From NCBI RefSeq assembly GCF_947331435.1, contig NZ_CAMZOF010000012.1:124001-188000 (forward strand): a stretch of 64,000 nucleotides of DNA, written 5' to 3'. The notes under the pieces were generated by a model that was not told the DNA's origin, ran no database searches, and saw only the letters and a program-made list of their open reading frames with translations. The DNA comes from Pelagibius sp. Alg239-R121 (GTDB lineage Bacteria > Pseudomonadota > Alphaproteobacteria > Kiloniellales > Kiloniellaceae). The number at the start of each line of letters is the position of its first letter. The stretch's first letter is position 1. Below are positions 3,368 to 56,439 of the stretch, piece by piece. A program made the position numbers and the translations under genes.

Positions 3368-4191
3368 TGTGTACCTGCCGCAGACTTGGGCGCCGGCCAG
3401 TCGTGGGTTTCCTCCGTGGCGTCGCGACACCAGCGATAAAGCGCATCGTAGAGGACCATGGAGGCCGAAAGCTGTTCGGCGTCGTCACGGTACATCCGCG
3501 ACAAGCCCAGGGAGGCTGCCAGGAGCCCAGCCGCTTCAGGCGCGAGTTCGGGACGTGCCGTATCCGCACCGCGTACAATCGCGGCCAGGCGCGAAAGAGT
3601 TTCGGATTGAAGGCCGAACTCCTTCAGCATGGTGTCGAAAGAGCAGTCTTCGCCCCGATGGCTCCAGAAGGCGCCCTCGATATCGAACGGCGCAGCGCCG
3701 AACTTTTCGGCGACCTGCTCCACCTCGGCAGGCGACACGAAGAGGAAGCTTGCATCGGGATCGACAAACCGCCGGATCAGCCAGGGGCAGGCAATACGGT
3801 CGATCTTCGGCCGGGCGCGGGTGACCCAGCGAGTCCGGCCTTTGCTGTCGCGTTCCGGAAGCTTTTCCTGCGCGATCGCGAGCTGCCCGGACTCAGCCCA
3901 GGCTTCGAAACCAAGTGCCAGGTTCTCAGCCTCAATGCCTTCGTTGCGCATCAGGGAGACGACACCCTGGCTGAGTTTTTTGCCCCGGTGGCAGACGATG
4001 ATCACCTTCCGCCCTGCGTAGAGACCCATCCACTGGTCGAGATCCTGATAATTGCGCCGGCGGGAGCCGGGAATCAGCCGCGGGTCGAGCGCAAAGTCCT
4101 CGTCGATACGAATATCGACAATGGCCGGCGTGCTGGGCAGACCGATCAGGCGGGAAAGTTGATTTACGGTGATTTCAGTTGGAGACGTCAC
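3364..4191 (-). CDS. chrB: Rhodanese-ChrB fusion, chromate resistance protein
   Basis: Residues 1 to about 110 form a rhodanese domain with DIRIDEDF and the active-site loop CHRGKK (Cys67). From about residue 120 the protein is a ChrB C-terminal domain (WVTRARPKIDRIACPWLIRRF, then FDIEG, HRGEDCSFD). ChrB proteins are known as chromate-responsive regulators or resistance partners of ChrA; the rhodanese fusion is a recurrent variant. The start is taken as a GTG (VTSPTEITVNQ) because GGAGGG sits eight bases before it; the frame stays open upstream to 4284 but that extension has no good ribosome-binding site. It forms an operon with chrA (4-base overlap). Confidence 0.88.
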   Translation of the reverse strand: MTSPTEITVNQLSRLIGLPSTPAIVDIRIDEDFALDPRLIPGSRRRNYQDLDQWMGLYAGRKVIIVCHRGKKLSQGVVSLMRNEGIEAENLALGFEAWAESGQLAIAQEKLPERDSKGRTRWVTRARPKIDRIACPWLIRRFVDPDASFLFVSPAEVEQVAEKFGAAPFDIEGAFWSHRGEDCSFDTMLKEFGLQSETLSRLAAIVRGADTARPELAPEAAGLLAASLGLSRMYRDDAEQLSASMVLYDALYRWCRDATEETHDWPAPKSAAGTQ

Positions 4192-4199
4192 AACACGCC

Positions 4200-4290
4200 C
4201 TCCCTTCAAATTAAGGTTAAGGACGCGACTCTTGGGCTGACGCCTCACGGGGTGATCGCTAACCCCATGGCTATTGGGTAGCAACGAGGC
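4200..4290 (-). repeat. chrB leader, copy A of a duplicated promoter region
   Basis: The sequence just upstream of chrB is matched, at very roughly 70 percent by eye over about 75 bases, by 7004-7095, in the same orientation. Shared blocks include AAGGACGCGA, CTTGGGC and AACCCCAT. The similarity runs into the ribosome-binding site and first codons of chrB. Confidence 0.6.
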
Positions 4291-15476: not shown

Positions 15477-15581
15477 CGTTTAGCGTTTAGATCGACTCAA
15501 AATTCACTGCCTCTCAATCAGCATACAGCTGATTTCGAACGCAAATTTTGGGAGCTCGCAATTCAGGAAAAATGCTAAACG
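15477..15581. repeat. Palindromic intergenic element, copy 1
   Basis: An element of about 105 bp bounded by inverted ends (CGTTTAGC at 15477-15484 and GCTAAACG at 15574-15581). Its core contains CACTGCCTCTCAATCAGC, then GCTGATTTCGAACGCAAATT, with AATCAGC/GCTGATT forming an inner hairpin. The same core occurs near 39141 and 42785. It ends 21 bases before the next start codon. Confidence 0.7.
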
Positions 15582-37609: not shown

Positions 37610-38281
37610 ATGAGGAAAGTTCTTGTTTTACGGCTGTGTTCGATGGCCGCGCTGTTTGTACTCTCGGCCTGCGTCACCGGACACAAGGTTGATGTACCGC
37701 CAACCTATAACTTCGGCACGACAGCACCGGACCAACCGCCCGAAGGAATCGTCGCCTTTTCGCTGCAGATCAATATTGACGATCTCCCCTGTTCGAGCGA
37801 CCTCGACTTCGGCTTCGCGGTGTGCCGTTCCGGCATCTACATCTTGCGCCGGGACGCGCAAACCGAAGACGGCAGGGACGGATTGGCAGCGGTGAACCCT
37901 TTCCAGGTGGATGCCACCCCGGAAGGCCTTTACGGCCCCGCGAGCTATATTGCCGGACCGCTGCAACCGCGTAAGGACATGGTGATCTGGAAGCTGCCCG
38001 AAGGCAAATACACGATCTGGCAATGGTATGTGAGTTCAGGCAACAGCACCCTTTCTCCCAAGGATTATCCGGAACTCTACGATTTTGAAGTGACTGCGGG
38101 GAAAGCCACCTATCTGGGACGGCTCAGCCTCACCCTCGATGTGACGGACCGGGACAATCTCACGTTCATATCCAAAATCAGCGATCAGAGTGACAGCGAG
38201 CTGCCGAAGCTGCTGGAAGCCTTTCCGCAGTTTCGTGATGCGACGGAAACCAACCTCTTGAGACGCATTCCATTGAACTGA
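37610..38281 (+). CDS. Hypothetical lipoprotein
   Basis: 223 residues with a lipobox: MRKVLVLRLCSMAALFVLSAC puts the lipidated Cys at 21. The mature part is a beta-rich fold (VAFSLQINIDDLPC, GIYILRRDAQ, GKYTIWQWYVSSG, FEVTAGKATYLGRLSL) of the type seen in bacterial carbohydrate or envelope-associated proteins. No enzyme motif is evident. It lies between a lysozyme and a small exported protein that are transcribed in the same direction. Confidence 0.75.
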   Translation: MRKVLVLRLCSMAALFVLSACVTGHKVDVPPTYNFGTTAPDQPPEGIVAFSLQINIDDLPCSSDLDFGFAVCRSGIYILRRDAQTEDGRDGLAAVNPFQVDATPEGLYGPASYIAGPLQPRKDMVIWKLPEGKYTIWQWYVSSGNSTLSPKDYPELYDFEVTAGKATYLGRLSLTLDVTDRDNLTFISKISDQSDSELPKLLEAFPQFRDATETNLLRRIPLN

Positions 38282-38396
38282 TACTCCCGCCCGGAAACAC
38301 CCTGTGCCCCACCCCTCCCTCTTGCAGGGGCGTCTACAGACGGTTCCGTGGGTCCCGGCATTCTGCAAACCAGGTATATTAAGATAAGGAAGACTT

Positions 38397-38864
38397 ATGA
38401 AATCCTTTGCTTTGTTTCTCATGGTCGCTGTCTTTTTCGCCACCGCGCAGCTCGCCGGCGCCGATCCTGCAATGAACGGCAAATGGATGGGGAAGCTGGA
38501 GTACAAGAACGTTCTGGGATACAGCACTGTGGAGAAGTTTGCTTATGAGTTTTCCGGCGACGGCACCTATAAAAGCCTCGAAGAGTATGCGCAACACACG
38601 CGAACCGGTGTCCATAAACACTCTCACAAAGTCCGCTATGCCGGGACCTGGAAAGTTCAGGGAAAGCAGTTCCGGTTCACACCTTCCAACAGCCAGGTTC
38701 TTGAAATGGAGTCTTCCTTTTTCAATAGAGAGGGCTTCGAAGATCAGATGCAGAACATGCTGAACATGACTTTTGAGTATGAAATCGTTTCGCGTAATGA
38801 CCGCCAGATAAAGCTACACGACAGGGATAGCGACAAAAAATTTACACTCGAGAAGCAAGAGTAG
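38397..38864 (+). CDS. Small exported protein, lipocalin-like beta fold
   Basis: 155 residues with a signal peptide (ALFLMVAVFFATAQLAGA). The mature part starts MNGKWMGKLEYK and alternates short strands (FAYEFSGDGTYKS, VRYAGTWKVQGKQFRFTPS, FEYEIVSRNDRQIKL), which suggests a calycin-like barrel for binding a small ligand. This is a fold guess only. AGGAAG lies a few bases before the ATG. Confidence 0.75.
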   Translation: MKSFALFLMVAVFFATAQLAGADPAMNGKWMGKLEYKNVLGYSTVEKFAYEFSGDGTYKSLEEYAQHTRTGVHKHSHKVRYAGTWKVQGKQFRFTPSNSQVLEMESSFFNREGFEDQMQNMLNMTFEYEIVSRNDRQIKLHDRDSDKKFTLEKQE

Positions 38865-39120
38865 CGGCGTGTCGGATAGGGAGCACGATGCCCGTCCCGT
38901 CTGCAGCCGCCCTTTCGAGGGCCTCATTCTTGAAGATGAGCCGAGCGCAGTCTTCATCAAAAGCGCAGGCTGACTAGGCCGCCCAAGGAAAGCACGCCGC
39001 CGCCATCATTCGCGGATCAGCCGCCCTCTTCAATCTGGGCAGGCGCTTGTCGCCGCCCGCTATCGTCTGCGCCGGACCATTTTCCGGATGGGTGCAGCGC
39101 CGCTCCCTCGCATGAGCATT
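38865..39120. other. Intergenic region, no gene supported
   Basis: The 255 bases between the small exported protein and the repeat element near 39121 show no coding frame with a start site. No cobalamin-riboswitch core is recognisable upstream of bluB. Confidence 0.4.
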
Positions 39121-39217
39121 TCTCGTTTCATCTGGTCCAAGTTTCACTGTCTCTCAATCAGCATAGCGCTGATTTCGAACACAAATTTAGGGGCCGTCTG
39201 GTTCGAGAAAAACGCGA
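39121..39217. repeat. Palindromic intergenic element, copy 2
   Basis: It shares the core CACTGTCTCTCAATCAGC and GCTGATTTCGAACACAAATT with copy 1 (two substitutions across the core) and the tail GAGAAAAACGC with copy 3. The outer inverted ends are degraded here. Confidence 0.7.
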
Positions 39218-39308
39218 ACTGCCCTGGATACCGTCATCTGCGGGATTGACGTCTTCCTCACCGCGGCTTAAGCCGGAAGGAATATACAAACCTCCGGAAG
39301 CTTTGGCC

Positions 39309-39971
39309 GTGGCGCCTCTCAGAGAAAACAGCGAAACCCCGCCGCTTTTTACCGAGCTGTTCCGCGACGAGCTCACGCAGCTACTGCGCTGGCGGCGGGA
39401 CGTGCGGCGTTTTAAGCCTGATCCGGTACCGGCCGAGATGATCGAAGAGCTGTTGGACCTCGCCTGCCTCGCACCCTCGGTCGGCAACAGCCAGCCCTGG
39501 CGTTTCGTGGCGGTGGAGAGCGCGAAAGCCCGGGCTGCCATCCGCGCCAACTTCGAAGCCGCCAATGCCCAGGCCCTGGATGGCTATCAGGGCGAACAGG
39601 CGGAACTTTACGCAGGGCTCAAGCTCTCAGGTCTCGATATGGCGCCGGTACAGCTCGCTGTCTTCTGCGACGAACAGACTTTGCAGGGCCACGGCCTGGG
39701 CCGCCAAACCATGCCAGAGACCCTGCGCTATTCTGCGATCCTGGCCGTCCACACGCTTTGGTTGACCGCGCGCACCTGCGGCATCGGGGTCGGCTGGGTC
39801 TCGATCCTGGACCCTGTGCAGGCGACCAAGGATCTTGCGGTGGCTGAAGACTGGAGCCTGGTCGCCTACCTCTGCATCGGCTGGCCGGAGGAGGAGCACC
39901 ACGACCCGGAACTGATCCGCCACGGCTGGCAGGACCGCTCAGCGGATTGCCGGAAGCTCGAGAAGCGATAG
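39309..39971 (+). CDS. bluB: 5,6-dimethylbenzimidazole synthase BluB
   Basis: 220 residues from the GTG of VAPLRENSETP. It matches BluB: LLRWRRDVRRFKPDPVP, the flavin-fold segment CLAPSVGNSQPWRFV, LSGLDMAPVQLAVFCD, GIGVGWVSILDP and the signature IGWPEEEHHDPELIRHGW. BluB is a flavin-destructase that makes DMB, the lower ligand of cobalamin, from FMNH2 and O2. The frame is open upstream to a TTG at 39246; GGAAG lies eight bases before the GTG, so the GTG is preferred, but the longer form cannot be excluded. Its last codons are duplicated twice downstream. Confidence 0.92.
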   Translation: MAPLRENSETPPLFTELFRDELTQLLRWRRDVRRFKPDPVPAEMIEELLDLACLAPSVGNSQPWRFVAVESAKARAAIRANFEAANAQALDGYQGEQAELYAGLKLSGLDMAPVQLAVFCDEQTLQGHGLGRQTMPETLRYSAILAVHTLWLTARTCGIGVGWVSILDPVQATKDLAVAEDWSLVAYLCIGWPEEEHHDPELIRHGWQDRSADCRKLEKR

Positions 39972-39984
39972 GGCCACGCCCCCC

Positions 39985-40021
39985 AAAAAAAGGCAGCGGC
40001 CCCTGTAGTAGGAGCCGCTGC
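39985..40021 (-). terminator. Rho-independent terminator of PEP-CTERM gene 1
   Basis: On the minus strand an eight-base perfect stem (GCAGCGGC with GCCGCTGC) around a 13-base loop is followed by CTTTTTTT. It follows the stop codon of the PEP-CTERM gene by 20 bases and lies between it and the convergent bluB. Confidence 0.85.
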
Positions 40022-40039
40022 AGATATCAGCGAGGCCCC

Positions 40040-40660
40040 TCAGGCCACTCGCTGGGCACGCGTTCTTCGGGCAAAGATGAAACCGGCAAGGCCGAGACTG
40101 AACAGGACAAGAGAGCCGGGCTCCGGGACGGCCATCGATGGGTCGGCGCGAGAGAAAACCGCCCAAACTTGGGCCGGGTCATCCGCAGTATTGCGGCGTA
40201 GATCCAAATCGTCGGAACCTGCTTGATCACCTGAACCCGATCCGCTGCCTCCGTTGATTGCAAATCCGATCTCTATGTCTGATTCCAAACCGAAAGGGAT
40301 GAACGTGACGCACAAAGCGGAAGATGTGCAGCCGGAAATCAACGCCGGATTTGAGTCGAACAGGCCCACAGGGCCGTCAAGGAACACCCGATCTAATAAG
40401 GCTTGGGCTGCCGCTTCGGCGGACATCGCATCCGTGATGGCGAAGTCTTCCGACGCGTTATTACAACCGGTGAAAGTAGCACTGCAAGTGCCATCCTGGA
40501 ATCTGACGTCGAAGAGTGTCCCGTTGACATCAACATTGTCCGCGCCAAGCAGCTCTCCATTCTCGATAATCAGCATGGGCATGGCCTTGGCAATACCGGG
40601 AAGTATTACGAAAAGGGCTGCAGCCACGGAAAAGGCCAGTCCCTGGAACGATTTCATCAT
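40040..40660 (-). CDS. PEP-CTERM exported protein 1
   Basis: 206 residues from MMKSFQ, preceded by GGGGAG. Signal peptide (GLAFSVAAALFVILPGIAKA), a body with three conserved Cys pairs (DGTCSATFTGCNN, SGCTSSALCVTF) and a PEP-CTERM tail (VPEPGSLVLFSLGLAGFIFARRTRAQRVA). It is clearly paralogous to the two genes upstream (LLGADNVDVNGTLFDVRFQDG is nearly shared with gene 2). An additional Gly/Ser spacer and DDLDLRR insertion sit before the tail. The upstream region carries the GGACAAA direct repeat shared with genes 2 and 3. Confidence 0.9.
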   Translation of the reverse strand: MMKSFQGLAFSVAAALFVILPGIAKAMPMLIIENGELLGADNVDVNGTLFDVRFQDGTCSATFTGCNNASEDFAITDAMSAEAAAQALLDRVFLDGPVGLFDSNPALISGCTSSALCVTFIPFGLESDIEIGFAINGGSGSGSGDQAGSDDLDLRRNTADDPAQVWAVFSRADPSMAVPEPGSLVLFSLGLAGFIFARRTRAQRVA

Positions 40661-40732
40661 GTTCTGATCTCCCCAAAATTCTCTGCGGGAAGAAACCCAT
40701 TCGTATGCGCAAGAACAAGGGGTGCCGTCCTT

Positions 40733-40760
40733 TTTGTCCATTACGGACGCAAGTTTGTCC
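40733..40760 (-). promoter_or_regulatory. GGACAAA 21-bp direct repeat, copy 1
   Basis: On the minus strand GGACAAA occurs twice with a 21-base start-to-start spacing, 73 bases before the start of PEP-CTERM gene 1. The spacer has drifted (CTTGCGTCCGTAAT) compared with the copies of genes 2 and 3. Confidence 0.7.
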
Positions 40761-40836
40761 ATTTTGGAACAGTGTAGATCGAATTCGCATAACTCGATCA
40801 GAGAACCATGGGCTTCATTTACGTGGTTGGTCGGAC

Positions 40837-41475
40837 TTACCCCTTCCGCCACATCCCCTTACGACGGGCAAAGCCGAGGCCTGCGAGACCGAGGCCGAGC
40901 AGTGCCAGGCTGCTGGGTTCAGGAACGGTCACCGATACGCCAGTGCCGGCAGGGGTGAAAACGGCGAATGTTTCAGTTATGTCGGGCGTATAATCAAAAT
41001 CCCTGGGAATAGGAACATCGGTCACGATTTCATCTGGCTGGATATTATCGTTAAAATTCTTGAATGTTTGATGGAAAAAGCTATCCACCGCACTTGAGAA
41101 GGTCAGCTCATAAGGAATCGCGAAATCGCAAAATACGAATGAACATCCCGAAGAAAGCGCCGGGCTCGTATCGAAATTGCCCTCAACACCGTCAAAGAAC
41201 ACCTGATCCCTTAGTGCCCGGGCCGCAGCTTGGGCAGAAGCGGAATCCGTGAAGGCGAAGTCTTCCGTTGCGTTATCACAACCGGAGAACAGGGTGATGC
41301 AAGAGCCGTCCCGGAATCTGACGTCGAAGAGTGTCCCGTTGACATCGACATTGTTTGCGCCGAGCAACTGGCCATTCTCGACGATCAGTATAGGTACGGC
41401 CTTGGCAGTGCCGGGAAGTGTTACAAAAAGGGCACCGGCCACGGCAAAGGCCAGTCCCTGGAATGATTTCATCAT
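40837..41475 (-). CDS. PEP-CTERM exported protein 2
   Basis: 212 residues: signal peptide (GLAFAVAGALFVTLPGTAKA), a body with LFDVRFRDGSC, FSGCDNATEDFAFTDSASAQAAARALRDQVFFDG that aligns with gene 1 almost residue for residue, a divergent second half and the tail VPEPSSLALLGLGLAGLGFARRKGMWRKG. The ATG follows GGGGAG. Genes 1 and 2 have arisen by tandem duplication. The upstream motif is at 41549. Confidence 0.9.
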   Translation of the reverse strand: MMKSFQGLAFAVAGALFVTLPGTAKAVPILIVENGQLLGANNVDVNGTLFDVRFRDGSCITLFSGCDNATEDFAFTDSASAQAAARALRDQVFFDGVEGNFDTSPALSSGCSFVFCDFAIPYELTFSSAVDSFFHQTFKNFNDNIQPDEIVTDVPIPRDFDYTPDITETFAVFTPAGTGVSVTVPEPSSLALLGLGLAGLGFARRKGMWRKG

Positions 41476-41548
41476 GTTTTGATCTCCCCAAAATTTTCTA
41501 CGGGGAAGAAACCGGTTCCAGCGAGAGAAGTGAAGTCCGGCAGGGCGT

Positions 41549-41576
41549 TTTGTCCCAAACGCGGGCAATTTTGTCC
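41549..41576 (-). promoter_or_regulatory. GGACAAA 21-bp direct repeat, copy 2
   Basis: The minus strand shows GGACAAAATTGCCCGCGTTT followed by GGGACAAAA, with repeats 21 bases apart, 74 bases before the start of gene 2. This copy is identical to copy 3 through the spacer. Confidence 0.8.
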
Positions 41577-41608
41577 AAGATGCAGCAGTGTCAGCGAAAT
41601 TCGCCTCT

Positions 41609-41794
41609 TCATCGGGATGTCCGACGCCCGAGACTTGTCTGGATGGCATCCGTCAGCTGAAGCTGGCAGATCACCCCAACCGCGCGTGGGTTGATGTGGG
41701 AGGAGCCGTCAATCAGGAAGAGCTCGTTCTCCGAAATGGCCTGGCTCAAGGCGTGGCTTTTGTTGAATGGCACCAGAGGGTGCTCACGGTCATG
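41609..41794 (-). pseudogene. Truncated duplicate of the lipoprotein hydrolase tail
   Basis: About 61 codons that match the C terminus of the hydrolase encoded at 44336: HDREHPLVPF against HGREDPLVPF, ELFLIDG, SHINPRAVGVI and QLQLxDAIQ are shared. No start or upstream part is present. The fragment abuts a bluB tail fragment on the opposite strand at about 41791. Confidence 0.85.
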
Positions 41795-41840
41795 GCTGGC
41801 AGGACCGCACGGCGGATTGCCGGACGGTCGAGAGAAGTTA
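41791..41840 (+). pseudogene. bluB gene-tail fragment 1
   Basis: Reads HGWQDRTADCRTVERS then a stop, against HGWQDRSADCRKLEKR in bluB. No upstream bluB sequence is present. The weak hairpin/A-run that follows resembles the terminator next to the real bluB. Confidence 0.8.
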
Positions 41841-41906
41841 GATTGGGAAAAAACGGCGCCCCCTGTGATGGGAACCACTGCGTTTAACACCGAAGTCCGT
41901 TGAACC

Positions 41907-42449
41907 TCACGCCGCGCACTGCATCCTTCTGCGTCTGGCGAAACCCAGACCCAAAAGGCTCAGGCCGAGAAGTGCGAATGTGCCGGGTTCCGGGACGCTC
42001 GCATGTCGCGTGATGATTTCGATCGAAGCAATAGCCCCAGGGATCGCTCTGTCGTTTGTGAAAACGGAGAAGGTCACACTATCCTCGGTAAAACTGACAC
42101 TGCCAATTCCCTGGATAGCGTCCAGAACGACATCGACAATCACACCGGCCTCGCCGACCCAGTCCAGGTCGGTAAAGACAAAATCGACATTGGTTGAAAA
42201 ACGAGCAGGACCGATGATACTCGCGAGCTCAATACTCGAAGCGCCGACGTCGAAAGTGAGTCTATTTCGCGGGTTGAACTCAACGCCGTTGCCCACGGTC
42301 TCGGTCAAGAGACCGGAAAAGCTGACACCATTTCTGAAGATTTCCAGGTTTACCTCGTCGCCGATCAGTGTTGCCTTAGCGGTACCCGGAAGTGTTGCGA
42401 TAACGGCCATGGCCACGGCAAAGGCCAGCGCCTGTAACGATTTCATCAT
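41907..42449 (-). CDS. PEP-CTERM exported protein 3
   Basis: 180 residues: signal peptide (ALAFAVAMAVIATLPGTAKA), a different body from genes 1 and 2 (LIGDEVNLEIFRNGVSFSGLLTE, FSTNVDFVFTDLDWVGEAG, beta-sandwich-like), and the tail VPEPGTFALLGLSLLGLGFARRRRMQCAA. The signal peptide and the whole 5' region are homologous to genes 1 and 2 although the body is not, so the promoter-plus-signal-peptide module has been combined with another body. Confidence 0.88.
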   Translation of the reverse strand: MMKSLQALAFAVAMAVIATLPGTAKATLIGDEVNLEIFRNGVSFSGLLTETVGNGVEFNPRNRLTFDVGASSIELASIIGPARFSTNVDFVFTDLDWVGEAGVIVDVVLDAIQGIGSVSFTEDSVTFSVFTNDRAIPGAIASIEIITRHASVPEPGTFALLGLSLLGLGFARRRRMQCAA

Positions 42450-42522
42450 ATTCTGCTCTCCCCAAAAATCTCTGTGGGGAAGAAACCGGTTTGAGCGTGA
42501 AAAGTGAAGCCCGGGACAGCGT

Positions 42523-42550
42523 TTTGTCCCAAACGCGGGCAATTTTGTCC
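42523..42550 (-). promoter_or_regulatory. GGACAAA 21-bp direct repeat, copy 3
   Basis: Two GGACAAA repeats 21 bases apart, 74 bases before the start of gene 3. The spacer is identical to copy 2. Confidence 0.8.
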
Positions 42551-42630
42551 AATACGTTACAGGATTTAATGGTTCCGAAACCGCCGACGTCACCCTTGGT
42601 GTCATCTGATCGAAGGCTCGGGGAGTCGAA

Positions 42631-42687
42631 GTCCGCCACGGCTGGCAGGATCGCACGGCGGATTGCCGGAAGCTGGAGAGCCGGTAG
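42631..42687 (+). pseudogene. bluB gene-tail fragment 2
   Basis: Reads VRHGWQDRTADCRKLESR then a stop, against IRHGWQDRSADCRKLEKR in bluB. It shares the Thr of fragment 1, so the two fragments are more closely related to each other in that position. No upstream bluB codons follow the fragment in frame. Confidence 0.85.
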
Positions 42688-42722
42688 GATGTCGTAAAAC
42701 AGTAGCGCCTCCTTAAAGCGAC

Positions 42723-42862
42723 TTGCGTTTAAGCAGATACAAAATTCGCTGCCTCTCAGAGCGGTTTGCGTTTTAACCAGCTCAAAACTCGCTGCCTCTC
42801 GATCAGCAAGCCGCTGATTTCAAACGCAGATTTTGTGATGCCGTGATTTAAGAAAAACGCAA
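42723..42862. repeat. Palindromic intergenic element, copies 3 and 3'
   Basis: A full element spans 42765-42862, with ends TTGCGTTTT and AAAAACGCAA inverted and the core CTCGATCAGCAAGCCGCTGATTT. A partial copy (TTGCGTTTAAGC...AAAATTCGCTGCCTCTCAGAGCG) lies directly before it at 42723-42763. Confidence 0.75.
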
Positions 42863-42906
42863 TTCACCATAGAAAGGAACCACCGTAGAGGTCAGCGCAA
42901 CCCCGC

Positions 42907-43026
42907 TCAGGCCGCTCGTCGGGCTCTCCTCTTCCGGGCGATGGCAAGTCCGGCGAGTCTCAATCCCAGGATCGCGATGATCGCCGGCTCCGGAGGCATT
43001 GCTACTGGTTCAAATGACTGGTAGCC
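42907..43026 (-). pseudogene. Relic of a PEP-CTERM gene, C-terminal signal only
   Basis: The minus strand reads SFEPVAMPPEPAIIAILG, then a hydrophobic helix and the basic end ARKRRARRAA with a stop at 42907. This is a complete PEP-CTERM sorting signal. An in-frame stop upstream and the absence of any signal peptide show that the rest of the gene is gone. Confidence 0.75.
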
Positions 43027-43029
43027 CCT

Positions 43030-44112
43030 TCACCCCAGGCCCGTCGTCGCTCTCCGCTTCGCCTCCAGCAACAGAACCTCGCGCGCCAGGCGCAGGCGGA
43101 AGCTTGGCTCCTCCGCACTCAGGCCCGGTAGGCCCCAAGCCTTGGCGGCGGCCTCTTCGGCAGTACGGGTTTTGGATCCGCGTTTTCCGTCAACGCCGCC
43201 GGGCTCAAAACCAAGGCGGGTGAGCGCGGACTGCAAGTCACGGATGCCGCCCTCCGCCGGGTCGTAGAGCGGCGCGCGTTCCTGGGAGAGCTGTTCAAGC
43301 AGCAGGGCATTGGCGGCCTCCTGCAGGGGCAGGTTGAGGGCGATCTGGTAGCTGCCGGCCGGCTGCTCGACGGTTTGTGAGTCCCCGGCCTTTTGCCCCT
43401 GCACCTCGGGCTCGCTCAACCACCAGTGCAGCCCCATTGCCGCCGCCTGTATCATGATCGTGACGCTGGCCAGGATGGTGGCCTGCTCCTTCAGGCGGGC
43501 GCCTGTGAATTCCTTCCACTTGCTGCTGAGCGTGGTCTGCCAGCTCCCAGCGCCGGCAGACAGGATCTCCATCTCCATGAAATCATCAAAGCGGATCGGA
43601 TTGTTGCGGGACAGATGGACACGAAAAGTCTCCGCTTCGACAAAGGCGCCGGAATCAATCAAGTCCATGGCCTGATCCAAAGCCGAAAGATCGGCCAGTA
43701 GTTGCCGGTGCCAGACGAAGTCGCGCTGCGCCTCTTCCAGATGGCTGAAACGATCCTCCAGGCCGTGCGCGATCATCTGCAAAAGAAAGATCTTCGCGGC
43801 GGCAACGTGAAACTCGAGGGTCGCCATCTGACGGGAGGCCAGGGGTGTCTGCACCGAGGTCACGGTGACGGCGAGTGGTCCTGCCGCGTGGGCCGGTTGA
43901 ACTTGAGGGACCGGCGCAACGGCAACACCTTCGCCAGACGTATCAGGGCCCGTTGTGGAAACACCTGGGACCGGAACGCCCGTGACAGGCAAGCCAGCGA
44001 CGGGAGCACCCGTGTAGAATGGCGGCTGCGTTGTTGTCGTACTATTGAGTTGGCTGAAGCGCGGCGGCACCTGCCGGAGCAGGTCGGACTTAACCTCGAT
44101 CAATATTTCCAT
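43030..44112 (-). CDS. Protein with peptidoglycan-binding domain
   Basis: 360 residues, no signal peptide evident. The N-terminal 85 residues are Pro/Val/Gly/Thr-rich and disordered. The middle is helical (ATLEFHVAAAKIFLLQMIAHGLEDRFSHLEEAQRDF, and a TM-like stretch ATILASVTIMIQAAAMGLHWWL near 230). The region GIRDLQSALTRLGFEPGGVDGKRGSKTRTAEEAAAKAWGL at about 295-335 is a typical PG_binding_1 domain. It may be a cell-wall-associated structural or regulatory protein. The next gene upstream on the same strand is the lipoprotein hydrolase, 220 bases away. Confidence 0.75.
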   Translation of the reverse strand: MEILIEVKSDLLRQVPPRFSQLNSTTTTQPPFYTGAPVAGLPVTGVPVPGVSTTGPDTSGEGVAVAPVPQVQPAHAAGPLAVTVTSVQTPLASRQMATLEFHVAAAKIFLLQMIAHGLEDRFSHLEEAQRDFVWHRQLLADLSALDQAMDLIDSGAFVEAETFRVHLSRNNPIRFDDFMEMEILSAGAGSWQTTLSSKWKEFTGARLKEQATILASVTIMIQAAAMGLHWWLSEPEVQGQKAGDSQTVEQPAGSYQIALNLPLQEAANALLLEQLSQERAPLYDPAEGGIRDLQSALTRLGFEPGGVDGKRGSKTRTAEEAAAKAWGLPGLSAEEPSFRLRLAREVLLLEAKRRATTGLG

Positions 44113-44335
44113 AGCGGCTCCCCCCGAAACAGCGAAGAAGCCATGCTAGAATGGATCATGTTGAGTTGGAATCACTTAATGGCCTAATTTCAATATGTGA
44201 ATCCGCTCAATCTTCAAACGATTAGATCAGTTTCCCCTGGCCAATGGATCACCAATGGCGATGCCATCTCACCCGGATCTGATCTGTCAACTTATTGGCG
44301 TCCGTTGGAAACTTTACCGTGCAAGTAACAGTGGC

Positions 44336-45553
44336 TCACCTTCGCCGCGCCAGAACCGCCTGGATGGCATCCGCCAACTGTAACTGCCCGATCACACCGA
44401 CCGCGCGCGGGTTGATGTGGGAGAAGCCATCGATCAGGAAGAGCTCGGTGTCAGGCACCGTGTTGCTCAGGGCGAGACTTTCGCTGAAGGGCACTAAAGG
44501 GTCTTCTCGACCATGGATCAGGATCAGGCGGCCGGCAAGGTGCGAGAGATCGAGCGCCCTCAAACTCAGAGCGTCAAGTTGCCTGCGCAGAGCCTCTGGC
44601 AAGGCCGCAAGAAGAGGCTCGACCTGCGCAGGGTCCTCATTGATCATGAGAGCATAGAGACTGCGCCCTTCAGGACCGAGTTGGGCGATGAGGTCCCTGC
44701 CCTCGCCGTCAACCAGAGCTTCCCGGCCACTGCGCTGGCGTATCTCCGCGATGGCGGTGAGCGCCGCGCGGTCGTCAGGGTCGATGAGCGCGTCGATGTT
44801 GCTGGAGAGAAAATACCATTTGGCGGCGCGCAGGGGTTTCAGGTTGCGCCATTTGTGCTCACCCGGCAAGCGGAAGGCGCCGGTGGTGGTAAAGCGCACG
44901 ACCTCAGTGGTGTCATAATAACCGCCCAGACCGACCAGGAAGCCGGTCCGCTCCTTTGCATCCGTTTCAGTGGTGGCAAGGACCGCCAGACCGACTGCAT
45001 AGGAGATAGCGACAAGGCCGATCTCGGAGCTTCCCTCGTCCCCGGTCAGGTTTTCGAGCTCCGAACGCCCGGAAAGATGCACCACGGCATCCGCAATCCG
45101 CCGTGCATCGCCCAGGCGCACCCGGGTCTCGCGGGAGCCGCGCAGGTCCGGCACCAGCACCAGAAAGCCGCTGCGTGCGAAGGACTTCGCCAGCGCCACC
45201 AGCCGGCGGTCGTTCTTGCCGCTGGGCGTGAAGCCCGGCACGAGGACCAGGGCGCCGTCAAGGTCGTCAGGATCGGTGCGGTTGGGGTGATAAAGATCGG
45301 CAGTCTGTGGAAAACCGGGTTGGCCGGTTTCGGGTTGGATGACGCTGTAGGTAATTTCGCGCCGGCTCGGCGTGGGCGTCGACTCCTTCAGCGCTGTGGG
45401 CGCCTCACCCGCATCGATGTCCTTGAGCACCCGCACCGCCTCCCAGCTTTGCGGCGAAACGCAGGCAGCGAGGAACAGCGGTAGAAGCAAGCCTAGAAGG
45501 CGGCGGAAAAACACGACCGTGTCCTCAGGTGACTGGTTATGCCGCCGTGCCAT
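44336..45553 (-). CDS. Lipoprotein alpha/beta hydrolase
   Basis: 405 residues. A lipobox (LLLPLFLAAC) gives an outer- or inner-membrane anchor. The catalytic domain reads LVLVPGFTPSGKNDRRLVALAKSFARSGFLVLVPDLRGS, then the nucleophile region LVAISYAVGLAV (AISYA as a variant of GxSxG), and the C-terminal HGREDPLVPFSESLALSN and GFSHINPRAVGVIGQ carry the acid and His. This is an esterase or dienelactone-hydrolase-type fold. The start overlaps the stop of the small membrane gene upstream by one base. Its last 60 codons recur at 41609. Confidence 0.83.
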   Translation of the reverse strand: MARRHNQSPEDTVVFFRRLLGLLLPLFLAACVSPQSWEAVRVLKDIDAGEAPTALKESTPTPSRREITYSVIQPETGQPGFPQTADLYHPNRTDPDDLDGALVLVPGFTPSGKNDRRLVALAKSFARSGFLVLVPDLRGSRETRVRLGDARRIADAVVHLSGRSELENLTGDEGSSEIGLVAISYAVGLAVLATTETDAKERTGFLVGLGGYYDTTEVVRFTTTGAFRLPGEHKWRNLKPLRAAKWYFLSSNIDALIDPDDRAALTAIAEIRQRSGREALVDGEGRDLIAQLGPEGRSLYALMINEDPAQVEPLLAALPEALRRQLDALSLRALDLSHLAGRLILIHGREDPLVPFSESLALSNTVPDTELFLIDGFSHINPRAVGVIGQLQLADAIQAVLARRR

Positions 45554-46816: not shown

Positions 46817-46837
46817 GGACTCATTTCATGAGTCCCT
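46817..46837 (-). promoter_or_regulatory. Perfect palindrome in the leader of beta-ureidopropionase
   Basis: GGGACTCAT and ATGAGTCCC form a nine-base stem around three bases, 22 bases before the start codon and just before its ribosome-binding site (GGAG). It could be an operator or an RNA hairpin that affects translation. Confidence 0.5.
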
Positions 46838-46955
46838 ATTTTGCATTCATGCGCCATGCGGGCTGCGCGCCCCAATGGCGCTGGTCCTCGGCGTTGCCTC
46901 GTCCGGATTACCCTCGATGATCCGAAAAAATTCTCAAGGTAATCTTGAACGAAAA

Positions 46956-46971
46956 CTGACCGTTTGGTCAA
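46956..46971. promoter_or_regulatory. RutR-like operator
   Basis: CTGACCGTTTGGTCAA is a near-perfect palindrome that agrees with the RutR box TTGACCA-NN-TGGTCAA at all but two positions. RutR is the pyrimidine-responsive TetR-family repressor of proteobacteria. It lies upstream of a pyrimidine-degradation enzyme. Confidence 0.65.
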
Positions 46972-47182
46972 CAAACCTCATGAGCACCGCTTGGGGACTT
47001 GACCCGTTCTTCGCTTCCCCCCCCATGCATTTATGTATAGCCCTATAAAAATTTGTGGATCGCCTGCGATAGCATTTATCACCAAATTTCCATCACGCAC
47101 TGAGACGCGGTGACTTGAGGGATGAGGATGGCGCGATCTCAGATGATTGTTCAACACTCCCTGTTGGATAATGATCAATGAC

Positions 47183-56411: not shown

Positions 56412-56439
56412 GGACAAATTTGCACGCGTTTGAGACAAA
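56412..56439 (+). promoter_or_regulatory. GGACAAA 21-bp direct repeat, copy 4
   Basis: The plus strand shows GGACAAATTTGCACGCGTTT followed by GAGACAAAA. The 21-base spacing and the GCGTTT spacer end match copies 2 and 3, and a further TGCCGGAC follows as in the PEP-CTERM leaders. It lies 233 bases before the gene at 56672, not 73 as in the other three. Confidence 0.65.

Follow-up and report, generated by a model that had tools for sequence, protein, structure and literature searches.

Why does the 3' end of bluB, the gene for 5,6-dimethylbenzimidazole synthase, recur twice among the PEP-CTERM genes next to it in Pelagibius sp. Alg239-R121? The locus is part of a stretch of 64,000 nucleotides (nt; contig NZ_CAMZOF010000012.1, positions 124,001 to 188,000), referred to here as the window. 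It comprises bluB on the plus strand and, on the minus strand, three PEP-CTERM genes (A, B and C), a PEP-CTERM relic, a gene at 43030-44112 and an alpha/beta hydrolase gene. The original prediction, based on the sequence alone, had proposed that a unit of bluB tail, terminator, PEP-CTERM gene and promoter was duplicated repeatedly and subsequently lost inner parts. Our comparison revealed that the end of the hydrolase gene is duplicated as well. The arrangement very probably goes back to a block duplication near the base of the genus, followed by partial duplications or exchanges and by differential loss, with the gene tails as passengers.

Two duplicated gene tails and their joint

The features of the locus are listed by window position and strand:

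39246-39971, plus: bluB, intact, start codon uncertain (TIGR02476, BluB equivalog, 270.6 bits, cut-off 150)
39916-39972, plus: 3' tail of bluB, the source of the repeated segment (sequence comparison)
39984-40021, minus: predicted intrinsic terminator of PEP-CTERM gene A, a hairpin followed by T7 on the minus strand (-24.5 kcal/mol)
40040-40660, minus: PEP-CTERM gene A (PF07589, 30.7 bits, cut-off 20.7)
40733-40760, minus: promoter-region box GGACAAA-N14-GGACAAA of gene A
40837-41475, minus: PEP-CTERM gene B, a mosaic (PF07589, 34.5 bits, cut-off 20.7)
41549-41576, minus: box GGACAAA-N14-GGACAAA of gene B
41622-41795, minus: fossil copy of the 3' end of the hydrolase gene (132/174 identical, ungapped; protein match E 8e-18)
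41791-41841, plus: bluB tail copy 2, overlapping the hydrolase tail at CAYGG (41791-41795)
41846-41880, minus: putative degraded terminator of PEP-CTERM gene C (-10.9 kcal/mol, z -0.6)
41907-42449, minus: PEP-CTERM gene C (PF07589, 30.6 bits, cut-off 20.7)
42523-42550, minus: box GGACAAA-N14-GGACAAA of gene C
42632-42688, plus: bluB tail copy 3
about 42710-42872, no strand assigned: dispersed repeat resembling a miniature inverted-repeat transposable element (MITE; 78.8% to G002, 12 genome matches)
42907-43008, minus: PEP-CTERM relic, 3' end only
43030-44112, minus: gene with a peptidoglycan-binding match slightly below the Pfam cut-off
44336-45553, minus: alpha/beta hydrolase gene, intact, the source of the second gene tail (PF00561, 29.1 bits, cut-off 25.8)

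The final ~52-57 nt of bluB (39916-39972) recur twice, both times with the stop codon in register. Over the 57 nt of this family, the copies at 41786-41842 and 42632-42688 are 77% and 88% identical to the bluB tail. In the whole 8.02-Mb genome the top three matches to the tail are these three sites (E 5e-90, 2e-13 and 2e-8), and no fourth copy was found there below E 0.02, the fourth-best match having an E value of 0.028. The local alignment scores of the two copies are 86 and 66, and the maximum among 60 dinucleotide shuffles of the locus (single strand) is 38. As a control, 57-nt slices from elsewhere in the window (1038 in all) were aligned with the region 39973-44335: two slices from the dispersed repeat scored 66 and 50, one with a promoter box 38 and the others at most 36; 12 other slices of bluB reached at most 29. 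Genome-wide E values, shuffles and slice control thus confirm the predicted twofold repetition of the tail with its stop codon and its similarity beyond chance. Each copy also faces a PEP-CTERM gene or relic, as originally noticed, with copy 3 facing the relic at 42907-43008.

A copy of the final 174 nt of the hydrolase gene, absent from the original prediction, is located at 41622-41795. It ends at the start of bluB tail copy 2, and the motif CA(T/C)GG is common to the hydrolase gene, the joint and bluB. Both parent genes are intact and located at opposite outer ends of the PEP-CTERM block. The copies are direct and maintain the parental order and orientation, and the novel joint at 41791-41795 connects an interior of the right end with an interior of the left end. 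A single head-to-tail duplication of the block would create such a joint between the interiors of its flanking genes in one step.

The constraint on the hydrolase copy is relaxed, with nonsynonymous differences from the window gene in 16 of 55 codons compared with 5, 5 and 6 between the window gene and its three orthologues. In a tree with three outgroup genomes the branch of the copy measures 0.26, that of the window gene 0.11. The copy is about equidistant from the genes of all four species of the genus under study (75.2-78.2% identity).

The locus in related species

Four genomes of the genus were compared, namely that of the window (G000) and those designated G001, G002 and G003; one of the relatives is Denitrobaculum tricleocarpae. 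The three relatives have a common order of bluB, PEP-CTERM genes A and C, a cytochrome c'-like gene (23.7 bits, below the Pfam cut-off of 26.5) and the hydrolase gene, with genes A and C recognised by DNA similarity and the PEP end in the translation rather than by a family search. No match to the cytochrome c'-like gene was found in the genome of the window, where its place is occupied by the gene at 43030-44112; the latter has no match in G001-G003 and is present in one of the four genomes of the genus.

Remnants of the bluB tail are also present in the relatives, with scores that depend on the query and a shuffle maximum of 38. Two such extra tails occur in G001 (53-61 and 46-47), one in G003 (50-56) and a weak one in G002 (41-42); G001 also harbors a further PEP-CTERM gene. 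The copy number, whose variation among related strains the original prediction had left to be checked, thus differs between these species. In G002, an open reading frame of 202 amino acids (L040:5120-5728) without any Pfam or PHROGs match is located between bluB and the tail-like remnant.

The flanks of the remnants support a homology of the tails between species, as judged from alignments with 1000 shuffles each. Gene C is preceded by tail 1 in G001 and by copy 2 in the window, and the alignment of these two spans tail and terminator (score 54, 0/1000 shuffles). Window copy 3 can be aligned with the G003 tail at a score of 53 (null maximum 46, 0/1000). The G002 tail scores 37 against window copy 3 and, by way of its downstream stretch, 55 against tail 1 of G001 (0/1000 in each case). 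Both window copy 3 and the G002 tail are followed by the dispersed repeat (78.8%) and then by a PEP-CTERM 3' end, and the relic aligns with the end of gene A of G002 (41, 0/1000). A second hydrolase tail was not found in the three 15-kb loci of the relatives. Next to the hydrolase gene of G002 are a terminator (-21.4 kcal/mol) and a box, collinear with the gene B promoter and the hydrolase tail of the window; this suggests that a further PEP-CTERM gene once adjoined the hydrolase gene.

Outside the genus, no clear duplicate of the bluB tail was found downstream of bluB in the 45 scored of 48 loci (three without a stop found were not scored); 11 of the 45 tails were read in a frame that gives an end unlike that of BluB, and 23 of the loci extend only ~1.4-1.5 kb downstream. 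The best scores were 36 on the plus and 39 on the minus strand, compared with 41-96 for the tail copies of the genus (46-96 without the weak one of G002). Seven single scores beat their own null maximum, taken from 60 plain tail shuffles on one strand, by 2-6 points. We rejected a repeat element or mobile unit, because the genome contains no other copy below E 0.02 and no clear duplicate occurs in these loci outside the genus.

Origin of the remnants

The following course of events would account for the locus. In the ancestor, a block of minus-strand PEP-CTERM genes would have been flanked by bluB on the plus strand and the hydrolase gene on the minus strand. A segment that began at least ~52 nt before the 3' terminus of bluB and took in the final ~175 nt of the hydrolase gene would then have been duplicated head to tail, joining the hydrolase interior to the bluB interior at the 5-base-pair (bp) near-match CAYGG. 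The third tail may stem from a further exchange or duplication of the part comprising tail, terminator, PEP-CTERM gene and promoter. Thereafter the species would have lost different inner parts, and the functionless gene tails would have drifted. The data show the copies, their joint, the differences between species, the relaxed constraint on the hydrolase copy and the mosaic genes; from these we infer the order and number of the events as well as the placement of the duplication near the base of the genus. The proposed repeated duplication with inner loss remains the best explanation in outline, with a copy number that varies between species. The four-part unit itself does not hold for at least one segment: one of its ends lies inside the hydrolase gene, so that the segment spanned the region from bluB to the hydrolase gene and was larger than proposed.

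Several observations weigh against this reconstruction. The inner segment has no complete second copy: parts differ or are missing, so that later loss must be assumed, completeness being expected only of a young duplication. Copy 2 of the tail differs from bluB at all codon positions (3, 2 and 4 differences over 52 nt), and the changes in copy 3 are mainly at third positions (1, 1 and 5 against bluB; 0, 0 and 4 against G003), as if it had long been under coding constraint. The G002 tail, which carries an insertion and is therefore out of register, was left out of this comparison. Although the numbers are small, copy 3 would fit a longer second bluB or DNA of a relative better than free drift, which leaves room for another history. 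Its left flank matches neither the region upstream in bluB nor the left flank of G003 (scores attained by 747 and 553 of 1000 shuffles), and the history is therefore incompletely ordered. A chance match of 42 inside another G001 gene equals the level of the G002 tail and is exceeded just slightly by the second tail of G001 (46-47). Three placements of the hydrolase copy in the tree are not distinguishable (approximately unbiased test, p 0.66, 0.31 and 0.42; support of 45 for copy plus window gene), so that the tree does not decide whether the copy split off before or after the genus.

Segmental tandem duplications in bacteria characteristically have a joint at short homology and are followed by later loss. 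The locus resembles them in the direct orientation of the copies, the novel two-gene joint, the 5-bp near-match, the decayed remnants and the variable copy number. Unlike typical cases it is old, its joint is legible despite ~20% divergence, and both flanking genes are intact. It is an instance of this ordinary, known process of segmental duplication with remnants and not a new kind of element. A published account joining PEP-CTERM genes with tandem duplication was not found within the limited literature covered, which says little beyond it. The locus represents a legible record of the growth and shrinkage of a PEP-CTERM cluster, with a joint, species-specific remnants and mosaic genes whose ends are conserved. 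It likewise accounts for the fragments of bluB and the hydrolase gene found here, pieces of a kind that annotators could mistake for genes or regulatory elements.

Copies 2 and 3 of the bluB tail and the hydrolase copy are marginally nearer to G003 than to the genes of their own genome. Together with the third-position bias of copy 3, this would suit an additive recombination, in which a foreign segment from bluB tail to hydrolase gene was acquired from another species of the genus and inserted beside the native one. We consider this scenario quite unlikely, as tail remnants at matching sites in the relatives are indicative of an ancestral event; trees fail to separate it from an old duplication within the lineage.

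Integrative elements are known to insert at the 3' ends of protein genes. If the end of bluB had served as attachment site, the element would have brought a replacement tail and left the old one at its other end, which would conform with the direct repeats of the gene's 3' end including the stop codon and with the unrelated open reading frame that separates bluB from the tail-like remnant in G002. Integration in bluB predicts a duplication of the target tail only, but the hydrolase tail is duplicated as well, and the copies are old, confined to this locus and, over 52 nt, 19% and 13% divergent from the bluB of the same genome. Moreover, no integrase or other recombinase match was detected among the genes tested (eight window genes at 37610-45553 with Pfam and NCBIfam, the G002 reading frame and the cytochrome-like gene with Pfam, and five of these ten in PHROGs), which makes this origin very improbable.

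A retention of the tails for a function, e.g. as a hairpin or a barrier to PEP-CTERM transcription, would be compatible with an origin by duplication. It is highly improbable, even though PEP-CTERM 3' ends adjoin the tails of the window and tail 1 of G001, as well as the weak tail of G002 if this is counted as genuine. A functional hairpin within the bluB tail is unsupported, its fold being no stronger than those of shuffles (z -0.6), and the stem seems, by eye, broken in G001 tail 1; the marked fold is that of the terminator and not of the tail. Chance similarity, finally, can practically be dismissed, since genome search, shuffles, slice control and flank alignments refute it for window copies 2 and 3, for which nothing speaks in its favor, and only the G002 tail (41-42) equals the chance match of 42 in G001.

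Mosaic PEP-CTERM genes and their signals

The C-terminal PF07589 domains of genes A, B and C all exceed the curated cut-off, and a start of the MMKSFQGLAF type, a putative signal peptide, is visible in the translations. In the whole genome, 43 of the 47 PEP-CTERM matches listed are above the Pfam cut-off. A comparison in 80-nt windows shows that the genes are mosaics of one another rather than simple copies. The 3' end of gene B is C-like and its 5' part A-like, its middle is unmatched (scores of at most 34, windows starting at 40930-41090), and its promoter is most similar to that of gene C. In gene A, the terminator and 3' end (windows starting at 39970-40050) have their best matches in G001 and G003 (82-100, others at most 50) and the middle (40130-40290) in G002 (76-96, others at most 46). 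The different best matches along the genes imply that the histories of the ends differ from those of the middles.

The mosaics may have arisen by recombination between the similar promoter and signal-peptide ends and between the PEP-CTERM ends, and they are best read as evidence for past exchange and not for an active mechanism. It is accordingly a separate and unlikely proposition that the interval between bluB and the hydrolase gene is a recombination-driven locus that diversifies the variable middles of exported proteins, with the promoter/signal-peptide ends on one side and the PEP-CTERM end, terminator and bluB tail on the other as homology arms. If it were true, middles would be exchanged, duplicated and lost here, and the gene tails would be part of an exchange arm.

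The hairpin after bluB (z -2.5; 2/200 shuffles fold equally well) carries its T-run on the minus strand, a point that the original prediction had missed. With this orientation it should terminate gene A, and the predicted terminator should belong to the minus-strand PEP-CTERM genes rather than to bluB. The weaker hairpin after tail copy 2 (-10.9 versus -24.5 kcal/mol) agrees with the degraded terminator described originally.

The box GGACAAA-N14-GGACAAA is a direct repeat ~105 nt before the starts of genes A, B and C, and a version with one mismatch is located at 56412-56439 (plus). The four genomes G000 to G003 contain 36 exact boxes (9, 10, 8 and 9), all with a spacer of exactly 14 (13-15 permitted); the reversed-pattern control yielded none. 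The box is possibly the operator of some regulator. Further boxes precede some unrelated genes and a PEP-CTERM gene in L115; on contig C13 the box lies close to a PEP-CTERM gene, and in L141 it flanks both sides of a divergent pair whose products end PEP-CTERM-like.

According to Haft et al. 2006 (PMC1569441), PEP-CTERM genes form units of one gene each, preceded by a long upstream region, and their families have undergone rapid paralogous expansion in certain lineages. The genes of the locus resemble these PEP-CTERM/exosortase families in both the single-gene organization and the long upstream regions. Unlike motif 1 of that paper, which ends in TTTACA, the box does not include this sequence, though PrsR is above its cut-off in the window's genome.

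The dispersed MITE-like repeat, also absent from the original prediction, is located at about 42710-42872, 39101-39215 and 15477-15575 and is present in G001 and G002. Of its 12 genome matches at E<=0.01, itself included, the last two are weak; the window holds two further ones. The repeat contains an inner dyad, and by eye its ends form an imperfect inverted repeat (TTTGCGTTTT / AAAACGCAAA). In G002 it sits between the tail-like stretch and a PEP-CTERM gene.

A cobalamin riboswitch or other RNA was rejected for the locus, which has no Rfam match at gathering thresholds; the sole match of the whole window is a chrB-a RNA at 4189-4271 (minus). For the region 46830-46981, both G001 and G003 give several matches that are offset, which would fit a short repeat whose copy number varies by species.

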